From positions 620,001 to 684,000 of the forward strand of contig NZ_CP058306.1 in assembly GCF_013389595.1 (NCBI RefSeq): a DNA stretch of 64,000 bases, read 5' to 3'. This document shows positions 15,772 to 43,561 of this stretch, piece after piece. The notes beneath the pieces are model-generated. The model saw nothing but the letters and a program-made list of their open reading frames with translations, was not told the DNA's origin and did not search any database. The position numbers and the translations under genes were made by a program. Numbering within the stretch: position 1 is the first letter of the stretch; every line of letters starts with the position of its first letter. Origin of the DNA: Flavobacterium sp. I3-2. Lineage in GTDB: Bacteria > Bacteroidota > Bacteroidia > Flavobacteriales > Flavobacteriaceae.

Positions 15772-16326
15772 TTATAAAGGAAGTAAAGTATATGTAATTT
15801 CAGTTGTGATTGTTTTTCCGTATTGGTCTAAGAAAGCCGATGTATTTGCAGCTGGAATTGCATAAACCAAACTATAAACATCCGCTTTTGTAGCTTTAGG
15901 CGAAGCAACAATTTCTTCTGCTGCTGCATGTTTCAGGCTGTTGTCGGTTCTGTTAGAAATTGCAGCTTCGTCATTTCCGCTTGTTTTAGCAACAATCAAA
16001 TCGATATTATTTGTACTTACTGAAGTGTTATCAGCAGTTCCGTTAAATTGAGCTGAAGAAACTTTTGCAGTAACTGCATATTTTCTTGAAGAAAAAATAG
16101 TCATTGTAATTGGAGTTGACTCACTTCCGCTTGCAAATTTTGCTTCGCTATCTAACAATATTGTTGCATTGTCGTTGCTTAAGTTTAAGCTGTAAAATTC
16201 ACCAACATTTACTGATAATTTATTTGTTTTTATTTTGTTGTCATTTTGTGCATTTGCACCGAATCCAAACATTAAAGCGATTGCTAAAATTGATACTGAT
16301 TTGAAGATGTTTCTTGTAGTTTCCAT
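15772..16326 (-). CDS. Small secreted protein, copy A of a four-member family
   Basis: A 184-residue protein with a clear signal peptide: METTRNIFKS start, then the hydrophobic ILAIALMFGFGANAQ ending near residue 27. The mature ~157 residues contain no cysteine and are beta-rich (LSVNVGEFYSLNL, PITMTIFSSRKYAVTAKV), ending TTEITYTLLPL. I do not recognise a family; a beta-sandwich surface or periplasmic subunit is plausible. The protein is identical to copy B (16544-17098) as translated, nearly identical to copy D (43007-43561) and slightly different from copy C (42229-42780). It has its own 129-base leader and terminator, so each copy appears to be a separate transcription unit. Confidence 0.8.
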   Translation of the reverse strand: METTRNIFKSVSILAIALMFGFGANAQNDNKIKTNKLSVNVGEFYSLNLSNDNATILLDSEAKFASGSESTPITMTIFSSRKYAVTAKVSSAQFNGTADNTSVSTNNIDLIVAKTSGNDEAAISNRTDNSLKHAAAEEIVASPKATKADVYSLVYAIPAANTSAFLDQYGKTITTEITYTLLPL

Positions 16327-16455
16327 TTTTGTAGTTTTTTAAAAAGTTATTTTGTTATATTTTTTTGTTTCATTTTGATATGACAAAGTAACAACGGAAT
16401 TCAACTTAGCTTTGTAGTAAGGATTGTCTATCAATTGTAGAAATTGAACTACAAT
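16327..16455 (-). repeat. Conserved 129-base leader of copy A
   Basis: This upstream region recurs at exactly 129 bases before all four copies (17099-17227, 42100-42228, 42878-43006). It begins with the inverted repeat ATTGTAG-N8-CTACAAT (16434-16455). About 20 bases later comes a further CTACAA hexamer, then TTACTTTG, one mismatch from TAnnTTTG, and an A-rich untranslated stretch. It probably carries promoter and regulator site. Confidence 0.75.
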
Positions 16456-16480
16456 GTTTTTTTATTATTTTATTAAAACC

Positions 16481-16516
16481 AAAAAAGCTGAATCCGATAT
16501 CGAACCCAGCCTTTTC
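16481..16516 (-). terminator. Terminator after small secreted gene copy B
   Basis: On the minus strand GCTGGGTTCGAT pairs with ATCGGATTCAGC (all pairs formed with G-U wobbles), followed by TTTTTT. It lies between copies B and A. Confidence 0.75.
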
Positions 16517-16543
16517 CAAAAACACATGATAATTTTTTTAATA

Positions 16544-17098
16544 TTATAGAGGTAATAAAGTATATGTAATTTCAGTTGTGATTGTTTTTCCGTATTGATC
16601 CAAGAAAGCCGAAGTATTTGCAGCTGGAATTGCATAAACCAAACTATAAACATCCGCTTTTGTAGCTTTAGGAGAAGCGACAATTTCTTCTGCTGCTGCA
16701 TGTTTCAGGCTGTTGTCGGTTCTGTTAGAAATTGCAGCTTCGTCATTTCCGCTTGTTTTAGCAACAATCAAATCGATATTATTTGTACTTACTGAAGTGT
16801 TATCAGCAGTTCCGTTAAATTGAGCTGAAGAAACTTTTGCAGTAACTGCATATTTTCTTGAAGAAAAAATAGTCATTGTAATTGGAGTTGACTCACTTCC
16901 GCTTGCAAATTTTGCTTCGCTATCTAACAATATTGTTGCATTGTCGTTGCTTAAGTTTAAGCTGTAAAATTCACCAACATTTACTGATAATTTATTTGTT
17001 TTTATTTTGTTGTCATTTTGTGCATTTGCACCGAATCCAAACATTAAAGCGATTGCTAAAATTGATACTGATTTGAAGATGTTTCTTGTAGTTTCCAT
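16544..17098 (-). CDS. Small secreted protein, copy B of a four-member family
   Basis: A 184-residue secreted protein with the same translation as copy A, 772 bases upstream in the same orientation. The DNA differs from copy A at a few positions, concentrated in the last ~150 coding bases (for example 16595-16614 against 15823-15842). In that stretch B resembles copy D rather than A. A signal peptide ends at about residue 27; the mature protein is cysteine-free and beta-rich. Role unknown. It is transcribed divergently from the WG-like gene at 17301, with a 129-base leader and 73 further bases between them. Confidence 0.8.
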   Translation of the reverse strand: METTRNIFKSVSILAIALMFGFGANAQNDNKIKTNKLSVNVGEFYSLNLSNDNATILLDSEAKFASGSESTPITMTIFSSRKYAVTAKVSSAQFNGTADNTSVSTNNIDLIVAKTSGNDEAAISNRTDNSLKHAAAEEIVASPKATKADVYSLVYAIPAANTSAFLDQYGKTITTEITYTLLPL

Positions 17099-17227
17099 TT
17101 TTGTAGTTTTTTAAAAAGTTATTTTGTTATATTTTTTTGTTTCATTTTGATATGACAAAGTAACAACGGAATTCAACTTAGCTTTGTAGTAAGGATTGTC
17201 TATCAATTGTAGAAATTGAACTACAAT
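17099..17227 (-). repeat. Conserved 129-base leader of copy B
   Basis: It matches the copy A leader over its whole length as far as I can see, including the inverted repeat ATTGTAG-N8-CTACAAT at 17206-17227. Its distal end abuts the divergent intergenic region shared with the right arm. Confidence 0.75.
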
Positions 17228-17300
17228 GTTTTTTTTGTTTTAATGCGAAAAGCTTTAGTTTTACGGCTTTAATAATCAATCCAAATACAGAATTACTTTT

Positions 17301-18254
17301 ATGAAAAAATTGCTTTTATTATTATTTGTTTCTATAAATGCTTTTGCTCAAGAGAAGTACGAGGCTTTTGAATTTGAGGGTAAATTTGGTGTTGTAAATA
17401 CAAATACTTTAGAAGAGTTTGTTATTCCTACATTCGATAGTTATGCACCCGTTTTCGAAGACGATGTTGCTGTTACACAAAAAGCTGAACTGTATCTTTT
17501 TGATAAAATGACAGGCGAACAAAAAAAATTCACATCACATTATGATATATTTTACAGTTCATCTAATGAAAAATATTTTTATTTTAAAGAAGATAAAAAA
17601 GGAGTAGTTGTACCTACAAAAAAATCGAATCAGACAATCAATTTTGACAAAAATTATCAAAGTATTGAAAGTATTTATGGTAATTTATTAGCGAAAAATA
17701 AAGAATCTTATGATGTTTTTTCTAAAGATAATTACGACAAACCTAAATGGGAAAATATTAGAGCTGAAGATATATACAATGATTATTTTTTAAATAAAAA
17801 AACTAAAGAAATACAAAAGATTATTATTCTTTACGGAAAAGAAAATGTGTTGGTATATGACGATTCGTTTGATTTAATTAAAGAATATAAAGAAGCTGTA
17901 ACGAATCAAAAAAAATTATTCGAATTAATTTCTAGCGATTTTGAAGTTCATGACAAAAACTTTATGACAGATGGAAGAGAACGTGATATTAAATCTTGGG
18001 AATTTGTAAATGATAATGACTTTACAATAATCACTTTAAAAGAGAAAAATATATCTTTTAAAATAAAAGGTGATTATGTATTGTCAAACTTAAAAATATA
18101 CTATAGTTACAGAAATGAGAAAGAAATAGAAAATTGGATTTCTTTGATAGATACAACGTCAAAAATGAAAGTTTCTTTTATAATAGATTTTGATAACAAT
18201 AAAATTTTATTACCTAAAAAATATCAAAAATTACTAAATATAAAAATGTTATAA
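17301..18254 (+). CDS. Secreted WG-repeat-like protein 1
   Basis: A 317-residue protein with an 18-residue signal peptide (LLLLFVSINAFAQ). The mature start KFGVVNTNTLEEFVIPTFDS resembles one WG repeat (Lys-x-Gly-Val-Ile-Asn then Pro-x-Phe-Asp), and weaker repeats of about 50-60 residues may follow; the C-terminus IDFDNNKILLPKKYQKL closes with a similar pattern. The first ~30 residues almost match the 41071 protein while the bodies diverge strongly. It lies 8 bases upstream of a related gene at 18263, so they probably form an operon, divergent from copy B. Function unknown; WG assignment is tentative. Confidence 0.72.
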   Translation: MKKLLLLLFVSINAFAQEKYEAFEFEGKFGVVNTNTLEEFVIPTFDSYAPVFEDDVAVTQKAELYLFDKMTGEQKKFTSHYDIFYSSSNEKYFYFKEDKKGVVVPTKKSNQTINFDKNYQSIESIYGNLLAKNKESYDVFSKDNYDKPKWENIRAEDIYNDYFLNKKTKEIQKIIILYGKENVLVYDDSFDLIKEYKEAVTNQKKLFELISSDFEVHDKNFMTDGRERDIKSWEFVNDNDFTIITLKEKNISFKIKGDYVLSNLKIYYSYRNEKEIENWISLIDTTSKMKVSFIIDFDNNKILLPKKYQKLLNIKML

Positions 18255-19247: not shown

Positions 19248-22097
19248 TTAAGCTTCCATGTATGCTTCGATTGGAGCACAAGAACAAACTAAGTTTCTAT
19301 CTCCGAATGCATCATCAATTCTACGAACAGTTGGCCAGAATTTGTTTTCAGAAACATATTCTAATGGATAAGCTGCTTGTTGACGTGAATAAGGTTGTTC
19401 CCAAGTTTCAGCAGTTAACATCGCTAAAGTATGAGGTGCATTTTTTAACACGTTGTTTGTGTCTTCTGCAGTTGCAGCTTCGATTTCTTTACGAATCGAA
19501 AGCATTGCATCACAGAAACGATCTAATTCAGCTAAATCTTCAGATTCAGTTGGTTCAATCATTAAAGTTCCAGCAACAGGGAAAGAAACTGTTGGAGCGT
19601 GGAATCCGTAGTCCATTAAACGCTTCGCAATGTCAGTAACTTCAATTCCGTTAGCTTTGAACATACGACAATCGATGATCATTTCGTGAGCTGCACGTCC
19701 GCGTTCTCCAGAATATAATACTTCGTATCCTTCTTGTAAACGCGCTTTCATATAGTTTGCATTTAAGATAGCAGTTTCTGTAGATTTTCTTAAACCTTCA
19801 GCACCTAACATCGAAATGTAACCGTAAGAAATTAAACATACTAAAGCCGATCCGTAAGGTGCAGCAGAAATAGCTGTAATTGCGTTATCTCCTCCAACTT
19901 TTACAACTGGATTTGTAGGTAAAAACTCAACTAAATGTTTAGCTACACAAATTGGTCCAACACCTGGTCCACCACCTCCGTGAGGAATTGCAAATGTTTT
20001 GTGTAAGTTTAAGTGACAAACGTCAGCTCCAATTGTTGCTGGATTTGTTAATCCAACTTGAGCGTTCATGTTTGCACCATCCATATAAACTTGACCACCA
20101 TTTTCATGGATTAAGTTTGTGATTTCGATAATTGATGATTCGTAAACACCGTGAGTTGATGGGTAAGTAATCATTACACAAGATAAATTATCTTTATGTA
20201 ATTCAGCTTTTGCTCTTAAATCTTCAACATCGATATTACCTTCTTCAGTTGTTTTTGTAACTACTACTTTCATACCAGCCATTGCAGCAGAAGCAGGGTT
20301 TGTTCCGTGTGCAGATGATGGAATTAAAGCAATGTTACGGTGACCTTCTCCACGAGATTCATGGTAAGCGCGAATCACCATTAATCCTGCGTATTCTCCT
20401 TGAGCTCCTGAGTTTGGTTGTAAAGTTGTACCTGCAAAACCAGTGATTACATTTAACTGTTGTTCTAATTTATGTAACATCGTTAAGTAACCTTCTGCCT
20501 GAGAAGCTGGTGCAAAAGGGTGCATGTTTGCCCAGTTTGGTAAACTTAAAGGTAACATTTCTGCAGCAGCATTTAATTTCATTGTACAAGATCCTAAAGA
20601 AATCATAGAATGATTTAAAGCTAAATCTTTACGCTCTAATTTTTTGATATAACGCATCAATTGAGATTCTGATTGATACGTATTGAAAACCTCATGTTCT
20701 AAGAAAGTAGATGTTCTTTCTAAACTTACAGGAACTAAAGCTAAACCAGATAATTCTGTAACTGTTTCAAAAGATTTTCCTGCAACTTCAGCAAAAATAG
20801 CAACTACTTGATTAACATCTTTTAAAGAAGTTGTTTCGTTTACTGTAATTGATACGTGATTTGCATCTGCATAGAAGAAGTTGTATCTGTTTTTCTCAGC
20901 AATTTCTTTAACTTTAGCAGCTTCAGCTTTGACTAAAATCGTATCGAAATATGCATCGTTTGCTTGCTCGAATCCTAATTTAGCTAATTCAGTTTCGATA
21001 GTAACAGCTGTTGCATGAACGTTGTTTGCAATAAAACGTAAACCTTTTGGTCCGTGATAAACGGCGTACATTCCTGCCATAACAGCTAATAAAACTTGAG
21101 CCGTACAAATGTTTGAAGTTGCTTTTTCACGTTTGATGTGTTGCTCACGAGTTTGTAAAGCCATACGTAATGCACGGTTTCCGTTTGTGTCTTGAGAAAT
21201 TCCGATGATACGACCCGGCATTGAACGTTTGTACTCTTCTTTCGTTGCGAAGAAACCAGCGTGTGGTCCACCAAATCCTAATGGAATACCAAAACGTTGT
21301 GTCGTTCCTACAACAACATCAGCGCCCATTTCTCCTGGTGATTTTAAACGAACTAATGATAAAATATCTGCTGCAACTGCAACTTTAATATCTTTCGTTT
21401 TTGCTGTATTGATAAAATCTCCGTAATCATGAACTTGTCCGTATTTACCTGGATATTGTAACATAACTCCAAAGAATTCTTCTGAGAAGTTAAAAGTTTC
21501 GTGATTTCCAACAACTAATTCAACACCGATTGGAGTAGAACGCGTTTGTAAAACAGATAAGGTTTGAGGTAAAACTTCTTCAGAAACGAAGAATTTATTT
21601 GCGTTATTTTTCTTTTGATCTCTAGTTCTTACATCAAACAAAAGAGCCATTGCTTCAGCAGCAGCAGTACTTTCGTCTAATAAAGATGCATTCGCGATTT
21701 CCATTCCAGTTAATTCAATAACTGTAGTTTGGAAATTTAATAAAGCTTCTAAACGACCTTGAGCGATTTCAGCTTGGTAAGGCGTGTAAGCCGTGTACCA
21801 TCCTGGGTTTTCAAAAATATTACGTTGAATAACAGCAGGAACAATCGCTTCGTTGTAACCTAAACCGATCATTGATCTGAATACTTTGTTTTTAGCTCCT
21901 AATTCAGTAATATGGCTCATGTACTCATATTCTGTCATTGCAGGATCTAATTCTAAATCTTTTTGTAAACGGATTTTATCTGGGAAAGTCTCAAATAATA
22001 ATTGGTCCATGTCTTTAACACCAACGGTATTAAACATATGTGGCAAATCGGTCGGTCTTGGTCCGATGTGTCTTAAAGCAAATGCATTTGTTTTCAT
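19248..22097 (-). CDS. gcvP: Glycine dehydrogenase (decarboxylating), P-protein
   Basis: A 949-residue full-length P-protein of the glycine cleavage system, which decarboxylates glycine and passes the aminomethyl group to lipoyl-GcvH. Both halves of the fused form are present. The N-terminal half begins FALRHIGPRPTDL; the C-terminal half carries the PLP-lysine motif LHKTFAIPHGGGGPG (Lys at about residue 698) and the conserved GSCTMKLNAAAEM at about 502-514. The length is standard. The gene stands alone with its own promoter-like TAATTTTG; gcvT and gcvH are not in the window. Confidence 0.97.
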   Translation of the reverse strand: MKTNAFALRHIGPRPTDLPHMFNTVGVKDMDQLLFETFPDKIRLQKDLELDPAMTEYEYMSHITELGAKNKVFRSMIGLGYNEAIVPAVIQRNIFENPGWYTAYTPYQAEIAQGRLEALLNFQTTVIELTGMEIANASLLDESTAAAEAMALLFDVRTRDQKKNNANKFFVSEEVLPQTLSVLQTRSTPIGVELVVGNHETFNFSEEFFGVMLQYPGKYGQVHDYGDFINTAKTKDIKVAVAADILSLVRLKSPGEMGADVVVGTTQRFGIPLGFGGPHAGFFATKEEYKRSMPGRIIGISQDTNGNRALRMALQTREQHIKREKATSNICTAQVLLAVMAGMYAVYHGPKGLRFIANNVHATAVTIETELAKLGFEQANDAYFDTILVKAEAAKVKEIAEKNRYNFFYADANHVSITVNETTSLKDVNQVVAIFAEVAGKSFETVTELSGLALVPVSLERTSTFLEHEVFNTYQSESQLMRYIKKLERKDLALNHSMISLGSCTMKLNAAAEMLPLSLPNWANMHPFAPASQAEGYLTMLHKLEQQLNVITGFAGTTLQPNSGAQGEYAGLMVIRAYHESRGEGHRNIALIPSSAHGTNPASAAMAGMKVVVTKTTEEGNIDVEDLRAKAELHKDNLSCVMITYPSTHGVYESSIIEITNLIHENGGQVYMDGANMNAQVGLTNPATIGADVCHLNLHKTFAIPHGGGGPGVGPICVAKHLVEFLPTNPVVKVGGDNAITAISAAPYGSALVCLISYGYISMLGAEGLRKSTETAILNANYMKARLQEGYEVLYSGERGRAAHEMIIDCRMFKANGIEVTDIAKRLMDYGFHAPTVSFPVAGTLMIEPTESEDLAELDRFCDAMLSIRKEIEAATAEDTNNVLKNAPHTLAMLTAETWEQPYSRQQAAYPLEYVSENKFWPTVRRIDDAFGDRNLVCSCAPIEAYMEA

Positions 22098-22130
22098 CTA
22101 CAATAAAAATAATTTTAGTTGTGTAATTCG

Positions 22131-22138
22131 CAAAATTA
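22131..22138 (-). promoter_or_regulatory. -7 element upstream of gcvP
   Basis: TAATTTTG on the minus strand matches TAnnTTTG and lies 33 bases before the gcvP ATG. No clear -33 TTTG is seen. No glycine riboswitch-like structure is evident in the short leader. Confidence 0.5.
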
Positions 22139-22235
22139 AAACTTTTTATTTGGATATATCTAATTATTTATCATTTAATTGAATGTCTTTTTTGAAATAT
22201 TATAACGATTCAATTTTTTAACTTTTATTATTGTT

Positions 22236-22260
22236 TTTATTTGGACTTTGTCTAAATAAA
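22236..22260. promoter_or_regulatory. Fur-like palindromic operator
   Basis: TTTATTTGGAC and GTCTAAATAAA form an inverted repeat with 10 of 11 positions paired around a TTT centre. It overlaps the -33 element of the TonB receptor promoter, an ideal place for repression. The ATTTAGAC/GTCTAAAT half-sites resemble Fur-type boxes, and the downstream genes look like iron or siderophore uptake genes. The regulator identity is inferred. Confidence 0.6.
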
Positions 22261-22270
22261 TGTAATTTTG
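22240..22270 (+). promoter_or_regulatory. Promoter of the TonB receptor/DUF4374 operon
   Basis: TTTG (22240-22243), a 19-base spacer and TAATTTTG (22263-22270) match both Bacteroidota promoter elements. The TTG inside the -7 element lies in frame with the gene and could be misread as its start. Confidence 0.75.
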
Positions 22271-22285
22271 CCAAAAAAAAATATA

Positions 22286-35215: not shown

Positions 35216-35223
35216 TATTTTTG
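35216..35223 (+). promoter_or_regulatory. -7 element upstream of the leucyl aminopeptidase gene
   Basis: TATTTTTG matches TAnnTTTG, 23 bases before the ATG at 35247. No -33 TTTG at normal spacing is visible. Confidence 0.5.
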
Positions 35224-35246
35224 ATTTTCAGATAAAAAACAACAAA

Positions 35247-36638
35247 ATGTTACAATTAACAAATACATTAAATACAGATGCAGTTGTTTACGTTGTAAAC
35301 GAGCAAACAAGTATCGATTCACAATTTCCACAATATATACAAGAAACTTTCGAAGCATTTAAAACTTCAGATGCTAAAGAAGATTTTATTAAAGTTGGAA
35401 ACAAAAATTATTTCTTCGTAAAAGAAAAACAAGATTTAGAAAAAATGCGCGTTGCCGGATTTGCCATTCGTCAAAAATTAGATAAAAAAGCAACGGCGAT
35501 TACCATTGTTGGAAATGACGAAACTACCTTAGCATTAGCAGAAGGATTGACTTTGTCAAACTACCAATTCTTAAAATATTTTAAAGATGCAGATGAGCGC
35601 GAATATCAGTTAGAAAACATCTTTATTTTAGGAAATGTTGCTCAAGCTTCAATCACCGAAATGAATAACACAATTCAAGCTGTTTTTTGGGCACGAGATA
35701 TGGTAAACGAACCATCTTCTTATTTATCAGCAAATCAACTAGCAAAAGAAATTCAAGAAATTGGAGACGAAGCAGGTTTTTCAGTTGAAGTTTTAGGCAA
35801 GTCAGAAATCCAAAAATTAAAAATGGGTGGATTGTTAGCTGTAAACATGGGTTCGATTGAGCCACCAACATTTACCATTTTAGAACACAAACCATCAAAT
35901 CCAATCAACGAAAAACCAATTGTTTTAGTTGGTAAAGGAGTTGTTTACGATACTGGAGGTTTGTCTTTAAAACCAACTGCTGGTTCAATGGATTTAATGA
36001 AATCTGATATGGGTGGGGCAGCCATGATGGCAGGAACTATTTATGCAGCAGCTTTAAATAAATCTAACGTTCATATTATTGGATTAATTCCAGCAACAGA
36101 TAACCGTCCAGGACAAAATGCGTATGCACCAGGTGATGTTATTACCATGATGGACGGTACTACCGTTGAGGTTTTAAATACTGATGCCGAAGGTCGTATG
36201 ATTTTAGCCGATGCTATTTCGTATGCAGATCGTTTCAATCCAGAATTAATCATCAATGCAGCTACTTTAACTGGAGCAGCTTTAGTTGCCGCAGGTTCTC
36301 GCGCCGCTTGTTTAATGAGCAATGCCGACGAATCGATTAATAAACAAATTCTAGATGCTGGAACAAAAGTGTACGAGCGTATGGTTCAGTTGCCTTTGTG
36401 GGACGATTATAAAGAGCAAATTAAATCGTCTATTGCCGACTTAAAAAATATTGGTGGACGTTTTGCTGGAACCATCACAGCGGGTAAATTCTTAGAACAT
36501 TTCGCAAAACAACCGTTTGTGCATATTGATATTGCTGGTCCAGCTTTCACAGAAGCTCCAGAAAATTACAAAGGTCACGGTGGTACAGGAACAGGAATTC
36601 GTACTTTATCAGAATTTTTCGCAAACTATAAAAAATAA
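35247..36638 (+). CDS. pepA: Leucyl aminopeptidase (M17 family)
   Basis: A 463-residue M17 cytosolic aminopeptidase that cleaves N-terminal residues from peptides. The C-terminal catalytic domain shows the metal/active-site stretch VGKGVVYDTGGLSLKP (about residues 228-243) and the signature NTDAEGRMILADA (about 311-323) with metal-binding Asp and Glu. The N-terminal macro-like domain is present but compact. No signal peptide. Length slightly below the 480-500 residues common in the family. Confidence 0.94.
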   Translation: MLQLTNTLNTDAVVYVVNEQTSIDSQFPQYIQETFEAFKTSDAKEDFIKVGNKNYFFVKEKQDLEKMRVAGFAIRQKLDKKATAITIVGNDETTLALAEGLTLSNYQFLKYFKDADEREYQLENIFILGNVAQASITEMNNTIQAVFWARDMVNEPSSYLSANQLAKEIQEIGDEAGFSVEVLGKSEIQKLKMGGLLAVNMGSIEPPTFTILEHKPSNPINEKPIVLVGKGVVYDTGGLSLKPTAGSMDLMKSDMGGAAMMAGTIYAAALNKSNVHIIGLIPATDNRPGQNAYAPGDVITMMDGTTVEVLNTDAEGRMILADAISYADRFNPELIINAATLTGAALVAAGSRAACLMSNADESINKQILDAGTKVYERMVQLPLWDDYKEQIKSSIADLKNIGGRFAGTITAGKFLEHFAKQPFVHIDIAGPAFTEAPENYKGHGGTGTGIRTLSEFFANYKK

Positions 36639-36643
36639 AAATC

Positions 36644-36678
36644 AAATCCGTTAGCTTCTCAGTTAGCGGATTTTTTTT
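36644..36678 (+). terminator. Hairpin terminator after the leucyl aminopeptidase gene
   Basis: AAATCCGTTAGCT pairs with AGTTAGCGGATTT (with G-U wobbles) around a TCTC loop, followed by a T-run. Confidence 0.78.
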
Positions 36679-36681
36679 ATG

Positions 36682-36786
36682 ATGTTGCGCTCACTTTTGG
36701 CTATTCGCCAACGCTCGCGCCGGGCTTTCCGCTAAATCTTTTTCTTCGCTTCGCTACAAAAAAGGATACCGCTGCAATCCCTAACA
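36682..36786. repeat. GC-rich intergenic repeat-like element
   Basis: About 105 bases, visibly GC-richer than all surrounding DNA, with blocks CAACGCTCGCGCCGGGCTTT and AAAAAAGGATACCGCTGCAA. Partly complementary sides (GCTAAATCTTTTT against AAAAAAGGATACCGC) flank a CTTCGCTTCGCTAC centre, so a hairpin is likely. Very similar short elements recur between genes in many Flavobacterium genomes, as far as I know. No coding frame. Only one copy is visible in this window. Confidence 0.6.
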
Positions 36787-36827
36787 CAAATAATAAAGGT
36801 TTTTATTAATTTATTTGTTTATTTATT

Positions 36828-36835
36828 TATATTTG
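36828..36835 (+). promoter_or_regulatory. -7 element upstream of the 36856 lipoprotein gene
   Basis: TATATTTG matches TAnnTTTG, 20 bases before the ATG. A TTTG at 36814-36817 is too close (10 bases) to be a standard -33 element. Confidence 0.5.
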
Positions 36836-36855
36836 AGTAATTAAACTAAAAAATT

Positions 36856-37323
36856 ATGAAAAAAAATAACCTTCTATTATTTTTTGCTATTTCTGGTTTT
36901 TTTTTCTCTTGTTCAAGTGATGACAATTCGTATCAAGTGAAATTCAACGAAGCAGAATTTACGCAACAGCGCGAATTATGGAAAGAAAATAATCTGTCCA
37001 ATTATTCGTATCAATACGATTATTTTGCATCAAGTGGACCTTTTGAAATAAATGTTCTTGTTGAGAATGGGATTGCAATAGGAGATTCAGATTATGCTGA
37101 TGCTAAAACAATTGATGAAGTTTTTAATAAAATCCAATCAGATTATCAAGATGCTTTAAATCAAGATAAAAATGGAATAAAGGGAGTCCAAATTACTGTG
37201 TCGTATAATAAAGAATTTCATTATCCAGAAAAAATTTATTACTCAACTTCATACAAAGGTGATAGTCCTTTAGGTGGCGCATATTATGAATTAGAAATAA
37301 AAAATTTTACACCAAACAATTAA
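36856..37323 (+). CDS. Lipoprotein, probably DUF6174 family
   Basis: A 155-residue lipoprotein with lipobox FFSC (Cys19) and the usual Ser-Ser-Asp-Asp follow-on. The mature part starts with a helix containing REEL-like REL, WKENNLSNYSYQYDYF, and then strands ending HYPEKIYYSTSYKGDSPLGG. The order 'helix, NYSYxY, strand pair, YP..I..' resembles DUF6174 proteins. Function unknown. Monocistronic between the GC-rich repeat and a bidirectional terminator. Confidence 0.68.
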   Translation: MKKNNLLLFFAISGFFFSCSSDDNSYQVKFNEAEFTQQRELWKENNLSNYSYQYDYFASSGPFEINVLVENGIAIGDSDYADAKTIDEVFNKIQSDYQDALNQDKNGIKGVQITVSYNKEFHYPEKIYYSTSYKGDSPLGGAYYELEIKNFTPNN

Positions 37324-37352
37324 TTTTGAAAATTAAATGCATTTTAATAAAC

Positions 37353-37384
37353 AAAAAAATGAAGCTTTAGAGCTTCATTTTTTA
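37353..37384. terminator. Bidirectional terminator between two lipoprotein genes
   Basis: AAAAAATGAAGCT and AGCTTCATTTTTT form a strong stem with a 4-base loop. It serves both the 36856 gene and the convergent NlpE-like gene. Confidence 0.85.
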
Positions 37385-37387
37385 GGA

Positions 37388-37864
37388 TTATTTTTTCTTG
37401 AAAATGTATTTATCTTTTAATGGACCATCAATAACTTTTCCGTCTTGGTCTAAGAATACCAATTGATTTTCTTCAACTTTAAGTTTCATATCCACTATTT
37501 TTCCTTTTAGGTGAGCGATGGTTCCATCGTGCCACATAATTGTACCTTTGTCCTCAATCGTTTCTTTCTTACCTAAATACGTTTGTTTAATTACAAAAGT
37601 ATTGTCATCATTTAAAGCTAATTCTGTCTGAATTCCTTCGCAATCAGCACAAGGTAAAGTACCAGCGTAAATTCCAGCCCAATCCAATGCAGTTTGTGCA
37701 GTGCTTCCATCAGGTTTTTCTTCTGTTGGTTTAGGAGTTTCCGTTTGCTCAGTTGTAGCAGGTTGGTTTAACGAATCGTTTGTAGATGTATTAGCATCCG
37801 CTTTTTTATCACAAGATGCAAATCCTACAGCAATTACAGCTGCAGCTAAAATCATTTTTTTCAT
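37388..37864 (-). CDS. NlpE-like copper resistance/envelope-stress lipoprotein
   Basis: A 158-residue lipoprotein with lipobox FASC (Cys18), a Thr/Glu/Pro-rich linker (about 20-58) and an NlpE N-terminal-type domain. The domain opens with YAGTLPCADCEGIQTELAL (about 67-85), containing the conserved CxxC, followed by the beta-barrel strands and KDKYIFKKK end. NlpE relatives sense or resist copper and surface stress in the outer membrane; only the N-terminal domain is present here. Monocistronic. Confidence 0.85.
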   Translation of the reverse strand: MKKMILAAAVIAVGFASCDKKADANTSTNDSLNQPATTEQTETPKPTEEKPDGSTAQTALDWAGIYAGTLPCADCEGIQTELALNDDNTFVIKQTYLGKKETIEDKGTIMWHDGTIAHLKGKIVDMKLKVEENQLVFLDQDGKVIDGPLKDKYIFKKK

Positions 37865-37991
37865 TTCTATTCAATTTTATATTTGTATAAAGGTATTAAA
37901 AAAATGAAAAAAAGAAGTTTTTTTTAACCAATTTATACAATTTATCTTTTGTGTTTTAGTTGACATAATAAATTGTAAATTGTAAACAAAA

Positions 37992-39374
37992 ATGCAAACT
38001 CCAAAAGAAATTGTTTTAAAACAAAGATGTTTCTTTTATAACGGAAATACTTTATCTATCTCTTATAGAAAAGAAGCTTTGTTGAAGTTAAAAAAAAGCC
38101 TAGAAAAACATCAAGATGAATTAATTCAAGCCGTTTATAACGATTTTAAAAAATCTGAATACGAAGTTTTGTTAACTGAGTTTGCCATGTTACAATTGGA
38201 GATTAAAAATCATTTAAAAAATTTATATCATTGGGCAAAACCACAAAAGGTAAGAGCTTCAATATTAAATTTTCCATCTTCTGACTTTATTTACAAGCAA
38301 CCTTACGGCGTTGTTCTTATTATTTCACCTTGGAATTATCCACTTTTATTAGCACTTCAACCGATGATTTCAGCAATTGCAGCAGGAAATTGTGTAATTC
38401 TGAAACCTTCTGAAATTTCAGTTCATACTTCCAAAGTTTTACAAAAGATGATTTCCGAAACTTTTCCACAAGAATATATTTCGGTTATTCAAGGTGATGT
38501 TCAAAAAACAACTGAAATTCTCGAAAATAAATTTGATAAAATCTTTTTTACAGGAAGTACTTCGGTTGGGAAAATCATACAACAAAAAGCGGCAGAAACT
38601 TTAACGCCGACTGTTTTAGAATTAGGAGGGAAAAGTCCGTGTGTGATAAATAAATCTGCGAATCTTGAAATTGCTGCGAAACGAATTACTTTCGGAAAAT
38701 TTGTAAATGCTGGGCAAACCTGTATTGCACCAGATTTTATTTGGATTGATGAAACGATTAAAGATAAATTCATAGCCATTTTAAAACAAACCATCATTGA
38801 TTTTTATGGAAACGAAATGCAACCGAATCCTGATTTTCCAAGAATCATTAATCAAAAACAATTTTTGCGTTTAGAGAAATATCTATCTGACGGAAAAATT
38901 TACTTCGGAGGAAAAACAGATGCTGTTGATAATTATATCCAACCCACAATTTTAGATGACATTTCTTTTGATGATGCAATTATGCAAGATGAAATTTTTG
39001 GTCCTATTCTTCCGATTTTGACTTTTAAAAATTTAGCAGAGGTTATCGAACACAATCATCAAAACGAAAAACCTTTGGCGATGTATTTATTTTCAACCAA
39101 CGAATCTGAAATTAAAAAATTTATGACGCAAACACAATTTGGTGGAGGTTGTATTAACGATGTTTTGTCGCATATTATAAATGATAAAGTTCCGTTTGGT
39201 GGTTTTGGTGCAAGCGGATTAGGAAATTATCACGGAAAATTCGGCTTTGATACTTTTGTTCATTTTAAAACGATTGTTCATCGAAAAAACTGGTTCGATT
39301 TTAAGATAAAGTATGCGCCTTATGCAAAAAAAAGCCAAATTATTAAGAAATTCCTATTCCGATTTTTATCTTAA
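37992..39374 (+). CDS. NAD(P)-dependent aldehyde dehydrogenase
   Basis: A 460-residue aldehyde dehydrogenase of the class 3/YwdH-like group. Motifs: PWNYPLLLALQPMISAIAAG (about residues 117-136), the cofactor-binding FTGSTSVGK (about 188-196), the catalytic Glu in LELGGKSP (about 209-216) and the catalytic Cys in NAGQTCIAPDF (about 239-249). It also has a hydrophobic/basic C-terminal tail (YAPYAKKSQIIKKFLF), as in membrane-associated fatty aldehyde dehydrogenases. It oxidises aldehydes to acids; the natural substrate is unknown. Confidence 0.93.
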   Translation: MQTPKEIVLKQRCFFYNGNTLSISYRKEALLKLKKSLEKHQDELIQAVYNDFKKSEYEVLLTEFAMLQLEIKNHLKNLYHWAKPQKVRASILNFPSSDFIYKQPYGVVLIISPWNYPLLLALQPMISAIAAGNCVILKPSEISVHTSKVLQKMISETFPQEYISVIQGDVQKTTEILENKFDKIFFTGSTSVGKIIQQKAAETLTPTVLELGGKSPCVINKSANLEIAAKRITFGKFVNAGQTCIAPDFIWIDETIKDKFIAILKQTIIDFYGNEMQPNPDFPRIINQKQFLRLEKYLSDGKIYFGGKTDAVDNYIQPTILDDISFDDAIMQDEIFGPILPILTFKNLAEVIEHNHQNEKPLAMYLFSTNESEIKKFMTQTQFGGGCINDVLSHIINDKVPFGGFGASGLGNYHGKFGFDTFVHFKTIVHRKNWFDFKIKYAPYAKKSQIIKKFLFRFLS

Positions 39375-39379
39375 AATCG

Positions 39380-39387
39380 TAAATTTG
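39380..39387 (+). promoter_or_regulatory. -7 element upstream of the antiporter gene
   Basis: TAAATTTG matches TAnnTTTG, 15 bases before the ATG, immediately after the aldehyde dehydrogenase stop. Confidence 0.5.
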
Positions 39388-39402
39388 AGCAAATAAAAAT
39401 TT

Positions 39403-40653
39403 ATGGAATTATATTATACGTTTTCAGTTCTAATTGTATTAGCCTCGTTATTTGCGTATTTAAACGTACGCTTTTTAAAACTTCCAGGAACCATCGGTAT
39501 TATGATTATCGCAATGATGGTTTCTGTTGGAATTCGTCTTCTTGGAGACCAATTCTTTCCACAAACTACACAAGAATTTTTTCAGTTAATAAAGGAATTC
39601 GATTTTACCGAAATTTTGATGGGAGCCATGCTTAATTTCTTATTATTTGCCGGAGCCCTCCATGTGAATATTTCAGATTTAAAAGAACATAAATGGCCCA
39701 TTTTTACTTATGCAACCATAAGTGTTGTTTTATCAGCGTTTATTATTTCAGGTATCTTGTTTTATGTTGCACCAATTTTTGGAATTACAATTCCGTTTAT
39801 CTATTGTTTGCTTTTTGGTACTTTGATTTCTCCGACAGACCCAATCGTGGTTTTAGGAATTTTAAAAGAAGCTAAAGTTCCAAAAATGATTGAAACTAAA
39901 ATTACTGGAGAATCATTATTTAATGATGGAGTTGCCGTTGTAATGTTTGCTGTCGTTTTAAAAATGGCTACAGATACTTCATTCGAAGCTACATTTGGTT
40001 CTGTTTCTTGGCTGTTTTTAATTGAAGCTGGTGGAGGAGTACTTTTAGGTGCTTTACTTGGAATTACTGCTTCTCGAGTAATGAAAAAGATTGACGATTA
40101 TAAAGTAACAGTATTAATTACATTAGCAATTGTAATGGGCGGTTTCTTAATCGCATCTGAATTACATTTTTCTTCTCCATTAGCGATGGTAATTGCTGGT
40201 TTAATTATTGGAAATTACGGTAAAAAGCATTCAATGAATGAAACCACACGCGATTATTTAGGTAAGTTTTGGGAATTGATAGATGAAATTTTAAATGCTA
40301 TTTTATTCTTATTTATTGGTTTTGAATTGTTGGTCTTACCAGATTTACAGCATCAATTATTGTTAGGAATTGTTACAATTTTCATTGGATTATTGGCTCG
40401 TACACTTTCTATTTTTATTCCTGCTTCAACAATTTTACGAAAAAACACGTATTCAAGAGGTTCTTTGATTACGATGGTTTGGGGAGGTATTCGCGGTGGA
40501 GTTTCGATTGCATTGGTGATGTCGATACCAAATTCGGCAGGAGAAATTAAAGATGTTTTATTAGAAATTACTTATATTGTGGTCTTATTCTCGATCGTAG
40601 TTCAAGGATTAACGGTTGGAAAAGTGGCAAAAAAAGTATTAAAAGAAGAATAA
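39403..40653 (+). CDS. CPA1-family Na+/H+ antiporter
   Basis: A 416-residue membrane protein with about 11-12 hydrophobic helices. It shows the CPA1 motif LISPTDPIVVLGILKEA (about residues 144-160) and the ion-binding Asn-Asp in GESLFNDGVAVVMF (about 170-183), then the conserved WGGIRGGVSIAL near the C-terminus. It exchanges sodium (or potassium) for protons across the inner membrane. There is no long cytoplasmic C-terminal tail. It has a probable promoter of its own just after the aldehyde dehydrogenase gene. Confidence 0.92.
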   Translation: MELYYTFSVLIVLASLFAYLNVRFLKLPGTIGIMIIAMMVSVGIRLLGDQFFPQTTQEFFQLIKEFDFTEILMGAMLNFLLFAGALHVNISDLKEHKWPIFTYATISVVLSAFIISGILFYVAPIFGITIPFIYCLLFGTLISPTDPIVVLGILKEAKVPKMIETKITGESLFNDGVAVVMFAVVLKMATDTSFEATFGSVSWLFLIEAGGGVLLGALLGITASRVMKKIDDYKVTVLITLAIVMGGFLIASELHFSSPLAMVIAGLIIGNYGKKHSMNETTRDYLGKFWELIDEILNAILFLFIGFELLVLPDLQHQLLLGIVTIFIGLLARTLSIFIPASTILRKNTYSRGSLITMVWGGIRGGVSIALVMSIPNSAGEIKDVLLEITYIVVLFSIVVQGLTVGKVAKKVLKEE

Positions 40654-40657
40654 TTTT

Positions 40658-40685
40658 AAGAGGAATGAAAGTTCCTCTTTTTTTT
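40658..40685 (+). terminator. Hairpin terminator after the antiporter gene
   Basis: AAGAGGAA and TTCCTCTT pair around a 6-base loop, followed by a T-run. An ATG inside the loop (40665) opens the next frame, but it lies in the terminator and is not taken as the start. Confidence 0.78.
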
Positions 40686-40691
40686 ATAATT

Positions 40692-41036
40692 ATGGAGAAA
40701 GAAGTTTATTTAAATGATATCAAGAAATCATTAGAATTAGAAAAAATTGATTTCTTTGACGAGGAAAAGCAAATTATATCAGAAGTTTTTTATCAAAACG
40801 GAGTTGATATAAATTTGTGTGTCAGCTTTTTTAAATTGATTTTACAGACACGAAATTTACTATATAAATACAACTTGCATTTGGTTTATGAACCTTTTAA
40901 TTCTAAAGATACAGAAGATGTAAATTGGCAAAGTTTCAAAATTACGAATGGAGTGCAAACCAAACTCGAAGTATTTTACGATAGCAATTATTCATTCATG
41001 CGAATTGAAGATAATATTTCGGCAATGTATTTTTAA
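40692..41036 (+). CDS. Small soluble protein of unknown function
   Basis: A 114-residue acidic protein without signal peptide or membrane helix; I do not recognise it. The start at 40692 is chosen over the in-frame ATG 27 bases upstream because that one lies inside the preceding terminator. Helix then strand patterns (DEEKQIISEVFYQNG, TKLEVFYDSNYSF) suggest a small alpha/beta fold. It has its own terminator and is convergent with the 41071 gene. Confidence 0.55.
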   Translation: MEKEVYLNDIKKSLELEKIDFFDEEKQIISEVFYQNGVDINLCVSFFKLILQTRNLLYKYNLHLVYEPFNSKDTEDVNWQSFKITNGVQTKLEVFYDSNYSFMRIEDNISAMYF

Positions 41037-41040
41037 ACAA

Positions 41041-41066
41041 AAGCGCTTCCAAATTAGGAAGCGTTT
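41041..41066. terminator. Hairpin terminator between convergent genes
   Basis: CGCTTCC and GGAAGCG form a 7-bp stem with a 6-base loop. A short T-run follows on the plus strand and AAs precede it for the minus strand. Confidence 0.65.
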
Positions 41067-41070
41067 CCGT

Positions 41071-42027
41071 TTATAATTTTTTCATTTTTAATTTAAGTTT
41101 CTTTAGATATTTTTTTGGATAGATAAACGCATTGTTTTTATAATCAATTTTGAATGCATGCAAATTTTTAGTTTCTTTATTATTAAGAACTACCCAATAA
41201 TTTAGACTTTTTGAATCTTTATATATCGAATTAATTGGAAAAAGAATTTCTTCATAAGAACCTGCAATTTCAAATCCAAGATGACCAAAGGTAAACGCTG
41301 TCTTATCTTTTACTTTATTTGATTCCCATCTTATAATTTCGGCACGACCACCAGCACCCCTTTCTAAATTGCTTTCTACAATTGTGAAATGTTTTTTAAT
41401 TAAACTAAAGGCTTCAAAACGGTCAGGTACTTTTGTTTCAATTTCTTTAAGTAAATTATAATCTTCGTCATAAAACAAAACTGTTTCCATACCAAAAAAA
41501 ACATTAACATAGAATTCTATTTGAGTATTAGTATCTAAAATTTTTTGTTCCATGTATCTTTTAGCTGGAATATCTCTAATTTTTAGACGCATGTTATCCT
41601 TATCAAACACATCAATTTTGTTATCATCTGAATAAGCAATGATATAATCGGAAGAATTTTCAAAATTATTATATTCTTTTTCTAACAAAAATTTATCAGC
41701 AAATACAGTTGATGAAATTAATAGACTTTTATTATCTTCTAAAAAATGAAAATATTTGCTTCTGTTTTTTAAATATAAATATTCATCTTTTGTCTTATAA
41801 CTTATACTTTCACCAGTTTCTTTATTAAAAAAATAAAAAATATCTTTATTTACAAAGGCAAGAACATCGGTAAAAATTGGTGCATATTCTTCAAATTTTG
41901 GTTCTAAATATTCTTCTAAGTTTTCTTTATTTACAATTCCGAATTTATTTTCATATTGAAAAGCCTCGTACTTCTCTTGAGCAAAAGCATTTATAGAAAC
42001 AAATAATAATAAAATAAATTTTTTCAT
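41071..42027 (-). CDS. Secreted WG-repeat-like protein 3 (right arm)
   Basis: A 318-residue secreted protein, the right-arm counterpart of the 17301 protein. The signal peptide MKK-x2-LLLFVSINAFAQ and the mature start EKYEAF..KFGIVN are almost the same, but beyond about residue 35 the sequence diverges strongly, with only scattered shared positions. A WG-like segment (KFGIVNKENLEEYLEPKFEE) opens the mature protein. The first ~70 coding bases and the upstream region are nearly identical in DNA to those at 17228-17370, showing that the duplication boundary runs into the gene. Function unknown. Confidence 0.7.
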   Translation of the reverse strand: MKKFILLLFVSINAFAQEKYEAFQYENKFGIVNKENLEEYLEPKFEEYAPIFTDVLAFVNKDIFYFFNKETGESISYKTKDEYLYLKNRSKYFHFLEDNKSLLISSTVFADKFLLEKEYNNFENSSDYIIAYSDDNKIDVFDKDNMRLKIRDIPAKRYMEQKILDTNTQIEFYVNVFFGMETVLFYDEDYNLLKEIETKVPDRFEAFSLIKKHFTIVESNLERGAGGRAEIIRWESNKVKDKTAFTFGHLGFEIAGSYEEILFPINSIYKDSKSLNYWVVLNNKETKNLHAFKIDYKNNAFIYPKKYLKKLKLKMKKL

Positions 42028-42099
42028 AAAAGTAATTCTGTATTATGGATTGATTATTAAAGCCGTAAAATAAAGCTTTTCGCATTAAAACAAAAAAAC

Positions 42100-42228
42100 A
42101 TTGTAGTTCAATTTCTACAATTGATAGATAATCCTTACTACAAAACTAAGTTGAATTCCGTTGTTACTTTGTCATATCAAAATGAAACAAAAAAATATAA
42201 CAAAATAACTTTTTAAAAAACTACAAAA
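42100..42228 (+). repeat. Conserved 129-base leader of copy C
   Basis: Same length and layout as the other three leaders, with the inverted repeat ATTGTAG-N8-CTACAAT at 42100-42121. At least two single-base differences from the others are visible shortly downstream (GATAGATAATCC instead of GATAGACAATCC; CAAAACTAAG instead of CAAAGCTAAG). Confidence 0.75.
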
Positions 42229-42780
42229 ATGGAAACTACAAGAAACTTCTTCAAATCAGTATCAGTTTTAGCAATCGCTTTAATGTTTGGATTCGGTGCA
42301 AATGCACAAGATTCTAAAGTAAAAACAAATAAATTATCAGTAAACGTTGGTGAATTTTACAGTTTGAATTTAAGTAACGATAACGCAACTATTTTATTAG
42401 ATAGCGAAGCAAAATTTGCAAACGGAAGTGAATCAACTCCAATTACAATGACTATTTTCTCTTCAAGAAAATATGCAGTTACAGCAAAAGTTTCTTCAGC
42501 TCAATTTAACGAAACTGCTGATAACACTTCAGTAAGTACAAATAATATCGATTTGATTGTTGCTAAAACAAGCGGAAATGACGAAGCTGCAATTTCTAAC
42601 AGAACCAATAACAGCTTGAAGCATGCAGCAGCAGAAGAAATTGTTGCTTCTCCTAAAGCTACAAAAGCGGATGTTTATAGTTTGGTTTATGCAATTCCAG
42701 CTGCAAATACATCGGCTTTCTTAGACCAATACGGAAAAACAATCACAACAGAAATTACATATACTTTACTTCCTTTATAA
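42229..42780 (+). CDS. Small secreted protein, copy C of a four-member family
   Basis: A 183-residue secreted protein, the most divergent copy: DSKVKT replaces NDNKIKT at the mature start, and Asn replaces Ser in KFANGSES. The DNA has many silent changes in its first half compared with A, B and D, yet its last ~100 coding bases agree with copy A (42709-42729 against 15823-15842). A signal peptide ends near residue 27. Own leader and own hairpin terminator. Mature protein cysteine-free and beta-rich; function unknown. Confidence 0.8.
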   Translation: METTRNFFKSVSVLAIALMFGFGANAQDSKVKTNKLSVNVGEFYSLNLSNDNATILLDSEAKFANGSESTPITMTIFSSRKYAVTAKVSSAQFNETADNTSVSTNNIDLIVAKTSGNDEAAISNRTNNSLKHAAAEEIVASPKATKADVYSLVYAIPAANTSAFLDQYGKTITTEITYTLLPL

Positions 42781-42820
42781 TTGTAAAGTATATTTTATAA
42801 ATCTTTTTCATAGCAAGAAA

Positions 42821-42852
42821 AGGCTGGATTCGAAATCGGATTCAGCTTTTTT
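42821..42852 (+). terminator. Terminator after copy C
   Basis: GCTGGATTCG pairs with CGGATTCAGC around AAAT, with G-U wobbles, followed by TTTTTT. Confidence 0.75.
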
Positions 42853-42877
42853 GGTTTTAATAAAATAATAAAAAAAC

Positions 42878-43006
42878 ATTGTAGTTCAATTTCTACAATT
42901 GATAGACAATCCTTACTACAAAGCTAAGTTGAATTCCGTTGTTACTTTGTCATATCAAAATGAAACAAAAAAATATAACAAAATAACTTTTTAAAAAACT
43001 ACAAAA
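42878..43006 (+). repeat. Conserved 129-base leader of copy D
   Basis: It matches the leaders of A and B apart from orientation, beginning with the inverted repeat ATTGTAG-N8-CTACAAT (42878-42899). It starts 25 bases after the copy C terminator. Confidence 0.75.
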
Positions 43007-43561
43007 ATGGAAACTACAAGAAACATCTTCAAATCAGTATCAATTTTAGCAATCGCTTTAATGTTTGGATTCGGTGCAAATGCACAAAATGACAACAAAA
43101 TAAAAACAAATAAATTATCAGTAAATGTTGGTGAATTTTACAGCTTAAACTTAAGCAACGACAATGCAACAATATTGTTAGATAGCGAAGCAAAATTTGC
43201 AAGCGGAAGTGAGTCAACTCCAATTACAATGACTATTTTTTCTTCAAGAAAATATGCAGTTACTGCAAAAGTTTCTTCAGCTCAATTTAACGGAACTGCT
43301 GATAACACTTCAGTAAGTACAAATAATATCGATTTGATTGTTGCTAAAACAAGCGGAAATGACGAAGCTGCAATTTCTAACAGAACCAATAACAGCTTGA
43401 AACATGCAACAGCAGAAGAAATTGTTGCTTCTCCTAAAGCTACAAAAGCGGATGTTTATAGTTTGGTTTATGCAATTCCGGCTGCGAACACTTCGGCTTT
43501 CTTGGATCAATACGGAAAAACAATCACAACTGAAATTACATATACTTTACTTCCTTTATAA
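43007..43561 (+). CDS. Small secreted protein, copy D of a four-member family
   Basis: A 184-residue protein differing from copies A and B at only a few residues (Asn for Asp in ISNRTNNSLK; Thr for Ala in HATAEE). At DNA level the first half matches A/B, the middle (AACCAATAACAGCTTGAA) matches copy C, and the end (43488-43510) matches copy B. Such a mosaic points to recombination between copies. Signal peptide to about residue 27; the mature protein is beta-rich and without cysteine. Own leader and terminator. Function unknown. Confidence 0.8.
   Translation: METTRNIFKSVSILAIALMFGFGANAQNDNKIKTNKLSVNVGEFYSLNLSNDNATILLDSEAKFASGSESTPITMTIFSSRKYAVTAKVSSAQFNGTADNTSVSTNNIDLIVAKTSGNDEAAISNRTNNSLKHATAEEIVASPKATKADVYSLVYAIPAANTSAFLDQYGKTITTEITYTLLPL

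Follow-up and report, generated by a model that had tools for sequence, protein, structure and literature searches.

A ~24.6-kb derived inversion in the chromosome of Flavobacterium sp. I3-2, possibly formed by the splitting of a tandem array with pilin-like genes

The invertible promoters and invertons of Bacteroidota are marked by short repeats, by a promoter within the inverting segment and by a site-specific recombinase. For Salmonella, a report on inverted cassettes gives inversion in 5 of 59 recombinants (PMC8262849). A study on hpn and hpn-2 of Helicobacter proposes that an inversion created the paralog (PMC4671568). The locus analysed here lies in a 64,000-nt stretch of the Flavobacterium sp. 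I3-2 chromosome, called the window, and consists of a segment of ~24.6 kb between two mirrored arms. The comparison with relatives supports this segment as a derived chromosomal inversion, a lineage event, and it looks like an ordinary rearrangement at repeats rather than a gene switch. We give a probability of roughly 0.55 to the reading that the inversion split a tandem array of units, so that the inverted arms would be mainly its product, with later exchange between the copies. The features of the locus are as follows.

15185..15571, plus strand, left-flank gene, 128 aa; breakpoint 1 at ~15521
15522..15740, spacer from the left flank to pil1, containing the pil1 terminator-like hairpin
15712-15741, terminator-like hairpin of pil1, in the spacer next to the left flank
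15772-17370, left arm, 1599 nt, mirrored counterpart of the right arm
15772..16326, minus strand, pil1, outer left-arm gene, for a secreted pilin-like protein of 184 aa
16435..16454, 20-nt palindrome TTGTAG-N8-CTACAA in the pil1 leader
16481..16516, minus strand, terminator-like hairpin after pil2
16544..17098, minus strand, pil2, inner left-arm gene, for the same 184-aa protein as pil1
17207..17226, further copy of this palindrome, located between pil2 and WG-like gene 1
17301..18254, plus strand, WG-like gene 1, 317 aa
18263..19195, plus strand, WG-like gene 2, 310 aa
19248..41036, the inverted segment, which runs from gcvP to a 123-aa gene that follows the Na+/H+ exchanger gene
41037..41070, spacer with a terminator-like hairpin at 41044-41063
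41071..42027, minus strand, WG-like gene 3, 318 aa
41958-43561, right arm, mirrored counterpart of the left arm
42101..42120, the same palindrome between WG-like gene 3 and pil3
42229..42780, plus strand, pil3, 183 aa, the copy that diverges most, at 93.8-94.9% DNA identity to the other three
42817..42852, plus strand, terminator-like hairpin after pil3
42879..42898, the same palindrome in the pil4 leader
43007..43561, plus strand, pil4, outer right-arm gene, 184 aa
43598..43633, plus strand, terminator-like hairpin after pil4, just beyond the arm
43949..45007, plus strand, right-flank gene, ketoacyl-ACP synthase III-like

The two mirrored arms of ~1.6 kb described in the initial annotation were found at these positions, each holding two tandem genes for secreted proteins of ~184 aa and the beginning of one divergent gene. 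The left arm matched the right at 95% identity over positions 1-1598 of its 1599 nt. Inverted match blocks between the arms were 98% identical over 746 nt and over 699 nt, 94-95% over 466-472 nt and 97% over 224-226 nt, and a register alignment of 15772-17383 with 41945-43561 had 84 differences in 1622 columns, 15 of them gap columns. Two inverted matches were exact, one of 553 bp (15946-16498 with 42835-43387) and one of 518 bp (16718-17235 with 42870-43387). Arm-to-arm pairs aside, the longest exact inverted repeats in the window were 24 and 22 bp, both local palindromes. The homology reached inwards to ~17383/41945, with background level beyond, and outward of the last stop codons the hairpins were nearly the sole match. 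By eye, a second hairpin was also seen at ~15600-15640; it was absent from the output of the terminator scan. In a relaxed scan for the palindrome with at most one mismatch, the control gave 32 hits and the real sequence 16 per strand; since the controls exceeded the real sequence, only the four exact palindromes and two with nearly the same core were considered.

That the near-identical stretches are good substrates for recombination, as had been proposed, is borne out by the 553 bp of perfect inverted identity. When the differences between the arms were shuffled, the longest identical run was at most 246, and none of 20,000 shuffles reached 553. Among the four pilin-like genes of the arms (93.8-98.6% DNA identity), all 25 variable columns in the first ~380 nt single out pil3, and downstream of this the pattern is mosaic, with pil3 equal to pil4 at 3 sites and pil2 equal to pil4 at 3 sites. 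The polarity of the 27 sites specific to pil3 was not used, because 15 were mixed, gapped or matching neither and the rest were split, 7 fitting pil3 as ancestral and 5 fitting the other copies. At the level of sequence, the perfect tract and the mosaic sites show apparent later exchange between the copies, in agreement with the arm-to-arm recombination first suggested for the locus, and such exchange could flip the segment again.

Besides the pair of WG-like genes known from the initial annotation, a third lies at 18263-19195. None of the three copies matched a Pfam family at E<=0.001, and the WG-repeat assignment was rejected; the label denotes a resemblance. The near-identity of WG-like genes 1 and 3 is confined to about the first 83 nt, and overall they are 35% identical, whereas gene 3 shares 89% identity with its metagenomic relative P0022, encoded on a public contig of 8717 bases; on these values the units seem to predate the inversion. 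Paenimyroides tangerinum has only a decayed remnant of a gene 2 ortholog, located at a contig end, and no ortholog of gene 3 (protein search) or gene 1 (DNA search) was found there, the join of gcvP to the right flank being an assembly gap.

Gene order was compared with relatives, as the initial annotation had called for. From a larger genus 398 genomes were drawn, of which 268 were scored, with one candidate per genome, and 130 were unscored; the seven closest relatives were those among the 268 with gcvP DNA identity of at least 81%. The markers were, in order, M3 peptidase, the exchanger and/or aldehyde dehydrogenase, pepA, gcvP and lpxD. The marker genes of 19248..41036 run in the opposite direction in P. 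tangerinum and in six of the seven relatives; the window orientation is that of one assembly. Five of the six (G022, G027, G107, G198 and G286) carry the markers on one contig in the order and orientation of P. tangerinum; in the sixth (G230) both junctions concur, spread over two contigs, and the seventh (G196) is rearranged. Genes were re-read at both junctions in G027, G107, G230 and G286 and on the gcvP-lpxD side in G198 and G022. In P. tangerinum, contig C21 corresponds to window 8001-14175 and 15139-15522 on the plus strand, followed by 5 unmatched bases, then by 41066-35228 and, further along, 27599-18629, both on the minus strand. The content of the segment varies by species: it is ~17 kb in P. 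tangerinum, and pepA and gcvP are 48-57 kb apart in G198 and G022. GC skew gave no clear signal as a mark of inversion. The inversion proposed from the arms is thus supported as an event of this lineage, with its left breakpoint at the arm.

The left breakpoint was narrowed to ~10 bp where the left-flank gene ends; the P. tangerinum DNA match stops at 15522. This gene is 80% identical to its P. tangerinum ortholog over residues 1-115 and diverges after residue ~112, with a tail of 16 residues versus 7, and its terminator differs too. A hairpin homologous to that at 41044-41063 follows the left-flank gene in P. tangerinum and lies at the opposite end of the segment in the window. The 128-aa gene is missing in the outgroups whose left junction was read, so the ancestral tail was judged on P. 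tangerinum alone. An arm at the left junction is absent in P. tangerinum and in the four relatives read there, and the outer flanks of the two arms have no homology apart from the hairpins. The right breakpoint was placed by the flanking genes only. There, the right-flank gene of P. tangerinum likewise adjoins the 3' end of a pilin-like gene. This end matches the left-arm 3' ends over 104-109 bp and the right-arm ones over 36-53 bp, a difference that a simple split leaves unexplained.

In the preferred reading, the ancestral order would have been left flank, Na+/H+ exchanger through to gcvP, WG-like and pilin-like genes, and right flank, with a tandem array of units, each a WG-like gene followed by two pilin-like genes, probably beside gcvP. 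With one break where the left-flank gene ends (3') and another separating two array units, one unit would have travelled to the left junction while the other stayed at the right one. Such a split would have changed direct repeats into inverted repeats and separated the left-flank gene from its own terminator. Exchange, presumably RecA-dependent, would afterwards have held the genes at 94-99% identity, and could in principle re-invert the segment today. The inversion would probably switch no gene, since leader and hairpin stay with every pilin-like gene and the regions upstream of the WG genes are alike. A relative with an intact tandem array was not seen among those compared.

The order of events implied by the initial annotation, with the arms existing before the flip, is possible but distinctly less probable than the split. 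In this case a unit of WG gene 3 and two pilin-like genes would first have been inserted at the left junction as an inverted copy; homologous recombination between the two inverted copies would then have flipped the segment. This would reach the same end state over substrates that are good, with signs of recent exchange, and inversion through inverted gene copies is documented (PMC8262849). However, it takes two events, copy-insertion and flip, instead of one and is less parsimonious, and it meets a left junction that carries no arm in the relatives re-read and outer flanks that do not match beyond the hairpins. Rather unlikely is the view of the duplicated units as a live recombination hub, in which the two arms go on exchanging sequence and the 24.6-kb segment flips to and fro in the population; a single culture would then contain both orientations, and each turn would homogenise or shuffle the pilin sequence. 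Duplicative inversion, in which staggered breaks or template switching copied one unit while the inversion formed, would account for the inverted copies at both segment ends and has the geometry proposed for hpn/hpn-2 (PMC4671568). It is improbable, because the contrast between WG genes 1 and 3 and the far more similar pilin-like genes argues against a common birth of both units in a recent inversion, unless the WG genes escaped conversion.

The chance is slimmer again that the segment was joined the wrong way round across the 1.6-kb repeats during assembly. The analysis covered one assembly of the strain, and contigs of P. tangerinum end in these same genes, but the genome is a single contig, long reads would easily span 1.6-kb arms that differ by 5%, and a locus flipped back would retain the left-junction arm that relatives lack and so would still be rearranged. 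A regulated invertible switch turning the pilin-like or WG genes on and off is the least credible of all. Phase variation typically targets genes of this secreted, pilin-like kind. Nevertheless, all four here have a leader with the same palindrome and a terminator-like hairpin that stay with the gene in either orientation, on which ground the switch was rejected. The swap of WG-gene promoters that had been predicted is likewise unlikely: upstream of these genes, 198 of 200 aligned bases are the same (99% identity, 3 gap columns), and WG genes 1 and 3 lie wholly within the segment. A change of promoter-gene pairing is accordingly not supported by these sequences. Promoter-like matches numbered 14 and 26, versus 9.2 (sd 3.3) and 18.2 (sd 4.7) in shuffles. 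Of the 103 ORFs listed for the window, 33 were scanned with Pfam, and none of these gave a recombinase domain.

Three further tandem copies of the secreted-protein family were found at 1996-1998 kb of the chromosome. They belong to an operon at 1990-1998 kb in which homologs of the arm genes accompany a chaperone-like protein and a 926-aa protein placed like an usher; some relatives of the chaperone-like protein are named PapD or fimbrial biogenesis chaperone in their source. By sequence, the arm genes are homologous to the putative pilin genes of this chaperone-usher-like operon. Neither Pfam nor NCBIfam gave a family at cut-off for the chaperone-like, usher-like and pilin-like proteins tested, and none of these matched a solved structure by sequence below E 0.05. 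The 33 chaperone-like proteins gave weak matches only, such as 2 to the WxL-interacting-protein domain and 4 PG_0320-like. One alignment (A1, 23 rows) held 17 of 20 proteins plus the window, operon and P. tangerinum proteins, leaving out P0001, P0004, P0020 and matches at 25-32% identity; the other (A2) held the query and 32 of 120 listed chaperone-like proteins. Judged by title and the start of the abstract, a literature search on chaperone-usher pili of Flavobacterium gave nothing specific. The extra pilin-like genes in the arms may be co-regulated with this chaperone-usher-like operon of Flavobacteriaceae.

The locus reveals no new genetic switch. In this bacterial example, sequence shows which way an inversion went, one of its breakpoints and where the inverted repeats probably came from. 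The example suggests that inverted repeats at the ends of an inversion may arise when a tandem array is split, and not only cause the inversion. Compared with known systems, the operon at 1990-1998 kb resembles chaperone-usher pilus operons in gene order and in some source names, but differs in that its structural proteins match no family model at cut-off. Like the invertons of the same phylum, the segment is flanked by inverted repeats; unlike them, it has repeats of 1.6 kb, no recombinase in the ORFs scanned and no apparent reoriented promoter. With the tuf genes and inverted kan cassettes of Salmonella (PMC8262849), it shares near-identical inverted genes within a single chromosome that conversion homogenises and whose recombination can end in inversion; here, however, the repeats are tandem pairs of secreted-protein genes, and the inversion is a difference between species, seen in assemblies. 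As with hpn/hpn-2 (PMC4671568), the orientation of a cluster decides whether the paralogs are neighbours or flank it on opposite strands; there the inversion is proposed to have given rise to the paralog, whereas the divergence of the WG genes here suggests older units.

In the window, two mirrored arms enclose a segment of about 24.6 kb, and the arrangement is as follows:
15185..15571 (+), left-flank gene, 128 aa
15772-17370, left arm, with the secreted pilin-like genes pil1 (outer) and pil2 (inner)
17301-18254 (+), WG-like gene 1
18263-19195 (+), WG-like gene 2
41071-42027 (-), WG-like gene 3
41958-43561, right arm, with the secreted pilin-like genes pil3 (inner) and pil4 (outer)
43949..45007 (+), right-flank gene, ketoacyl-ACP synthase III-like

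The mirrored arms described in the initial annotation were confirmed, as the left arm matched the right arm over its full length at 95% identity. An inverted-repeat search of the window recovered the arms in pieces that were 98% identical (746 nt and 699 nt), 94-95% identical (466-472 nt) and 97% identical (224-226 nt). The two longest perfect inverted matches linking the arms measured 553 bp and 518 bp, and other perfect inverted repeats in the window reached up to 24 bp. Read from its inner end outwards, each arm opens with the 5' part of a divergent WG-like gene, followed by a leader of ~200 nt and a gene for a ~184-aa secreted protein; after a terminator-like hairpin, leader and gene occur a second time, and a further hairpin stands directly outside. 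The window covers 620,001-684,000 of a single contig of 3,549,933 bases. Apart from the arms, two direct 240-nt copies (79% identical, starts 357 nt apart) were found at 58184-58780 within ORF 57194-58795.

When a species-level genome collection was scanned for the secreted protein, the two loci found were in Paenimyroides tangerinum, each at the end of a contig. Among 398 genomes drawn from the genus, G331 was the only one outside the window's own genome with a match at E<=1e-20 (56% identity). In P. tangerinum contig C21, the left flank (window 8001-14175 and 15139-15522) was followed by 5 unmatched bases and then by window 41066 running backwards to 35228; farther along, 27599 ran backwards to 18629, the queries having left out window 27601-31999. 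The segment is therefore inverted in the window relative to P. tangerinum, where no arm is present at the junction of left flank and segment. With a total length of ~17 kb in that species, the segment differs in content from that of the window. On the gcvP side, C21 ends 316 bases beyond the last match, beside what is left of a degenerate WG-like gene 2. The right flank is carried by contig C61, whose terminal sequence is the 3' end of a pilin-like gene together with its hairpin. Since both contigs end there, the join of gcvP and right flank is an assembly gap.

The ancestral state was read from the seven genomes with gcvP at >=81% DNA identity among 268 scored of the 398 drawn. In five of them (G022, G027, G107, G198 and G286), the M3 peptidase, exchanger and/or aldehyde dehydrogenase, pepA, gcvP and lpxD genes were on one contig in the order and orientation of P. 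tangerinum. Both junctions of G230 agreed as well, on separate contigs, and G196 was rearranged and uninformative. On re-reading of the junctions, the M3 peptidase gene was seen to face the exchanger gene in four genomes (G286, G107, G230 and G027), and gcvP to face lpxD in six (G286, G107, G198, G022, G230 and G027). These ten junction stretches contained no pilin-like or WG-like match (tblastn, E<=1e-3). Because the relatives share the arrangement of P. tangerinum, the window genome carries the derived orientation. The proposed inversion, for which comparison of gene order in close relatives had been suggested as a check, was thus supported as a lineage event, the opposite order being found in P. 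tangerinum and six of the seven relatives.

The left breakpoint lies within the left-flank gene, which matches P. tangerinum to residue ~112 (about 15521) and continues with a different tail of 16 residues. In P. tangerinum this gene has a 7-residue tail, and a hairpin stands between it and a converging gene. The counterpart of that hairpin in the window is at the other end of the segment, at 41044-41063, between a 123-aa gene and WG-like gene 3. Another hairpin now follows the left-flank gene at about 15600-15640 (seen by eye; the terminator scan did not report it). Because the outgroups read at the junction lack the left-flank gene, it is gene order, and not the tail itself, that gives the direction of the tail change. 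Window 14176-15138 (most of the 378-aa ORF 14200-15336) had no match in P. tangerinum, where 7 bases separate the two flanking DNA matches; this is another minor difference next to the breakpoint.

Over their full length, WG-like genes 1 and 3 share 35% identity, although they are nearly identical in about the first 83 nt and in the ~200 nt upstream; gene 3 is 89% identical to its metagenomic relative P0022, and more distant homologs (34%) occur elsewhere in G107 and G198. Given 35% against 89%, the two WG-pil-pil units seem to predate the inversion. The arms would be most simply explained by an ancestral tandem array, [WG-pil-pil][WG-pil-pil], next to gcvP, which was divided by an inversion that had one of its ends inside the array. 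Insertion of a unit copy followed by recombination flipping the segment, or a duplicative inversion, would produce the same end state, and we keep both as rivals. The pilin-like 3' end that adjoins the right flank in P. tangerinum matched left-arm ends over 104-109 bp and right-arm ends over 36-53 bp, which fits the array split poorly; conversion or array turnover could explain these lengths.

The secreted-protein family has three additional tandem members at 1996-1998 kb (72-74% identical), in an apparent operon:
L026:4757-12409 (G000:C1:1990756-1998408, the window's own genome), chaperone-usher-like operon that encodes an usher-like protein of 926 aa and has two tandem pilin-like genes of identical sequence (546/546 bases)

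The operon comprises two identical 181-aa genes, a 232-aa version with a glycine/asparagine-rich insert, two 171-aa proteins, a 263-aa chaperone-like protein and 346-aa and 926-aa proteins, and is adjoined by an AraC-type regulator. A similar operon is present in P. tangerinum. Among relatives of the 263-aa protein, some carry the source name PapD or fimbrial biogenesis chaperone, and others are annotated as hypothetical. The structural proteins of the operon stayed below cut-off with the Pfam and NCBIfam models, and a few of 33 chaperone-like proteins matched WxL-interacting-protein or PG_0320-like domains weakly; the term pilin-like for the arm genes is therefore inferred from gene context. 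Pilin-like proteins of both species (L021:696-1571 in P. tangerinum; L026:10445-11143) carry long GN-rich low-complexity inserts of differing length between signal peptide and conserved domain. Upstream of a P. tangerinum pilin-like gene, L044:5633-6060 holds 4.3 copies of a 99-bp tandem repeat near a gene reading by eye like an IS3-type transposase. Similar sequence occurs at L042:269-432 and L026:12556-12803, and in both species related repeats separate the AraC-type gene from the first pilin-like gene.

All four arm leaders contain an exact 20-nt palindrome, TTGTAG-N8-CTACAA, and nearly the same core recurs twice with one mismatch:
16435, 17207, 42101 and 42879 (window), exact copies upstream of the arm pilin-like genes
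G000:C1:1997834, one mismatch, inside the pilus-like operon
G000:C1:2510162 (L060:2663), one mismatch, about 190 nt before a second AraC-type regulator gene

The second regulator is 31% identical to the operon-adjacent one. An autoregulated pilus regulon sharing this palindrome is possible. That it is an operator common to the arm genes and the operon is a guess, because the relaxed pattern was not enriched over its control.

Aligned in register, the arms differed at 84 of 1622 columns; their longest identical run was 553, a length reached in 0 of 20,000 shuffles of the differences (maximum 246). In the first ~380 nt of the four pil copies, all 25 variable columns (3 gaps) separated pil3; beyond this, patterns were mixed, pil3 agreeing with pil4 at 3 sites and pil2 with pil4 at 3 sites. 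The pil1, pil2 and pil4 genes were mutually 98.0-98.6% identical, and pil3 was 93.8-94.9% identical to the others. Unlike the genes, the leaders grouped by register (inner pair 198/200 plus 3 gap columns; outer pair 195/204 plus 22 gap columns; remaining pairs 82-87%). This is the mosaic expected of gene conversion.

It had also been suggested that inversion would swap the bodies of the WG-like genes between the two promoter contexts. Such a switch appears unlikely, since pil1-pil4 each retain a leader with palindrome and a hairpin in either orientation, the upstream regions of WG-like genes 1 and 3 are alike, and no recombinase was found among 33 window ORFs scanned with Pfam. Occasional flipping of the segment is plausible by analogy, because inversion accompanies some recombination between inverted repeats in Salmonella: it did so in 5 of 59 clones with inverted cassettes (PMC8262849), and the authors of that study cite inversion in up to a quarter of events for the tuf genes. 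The inversion is a well-resolved example of a type of rearrangement that is already known.
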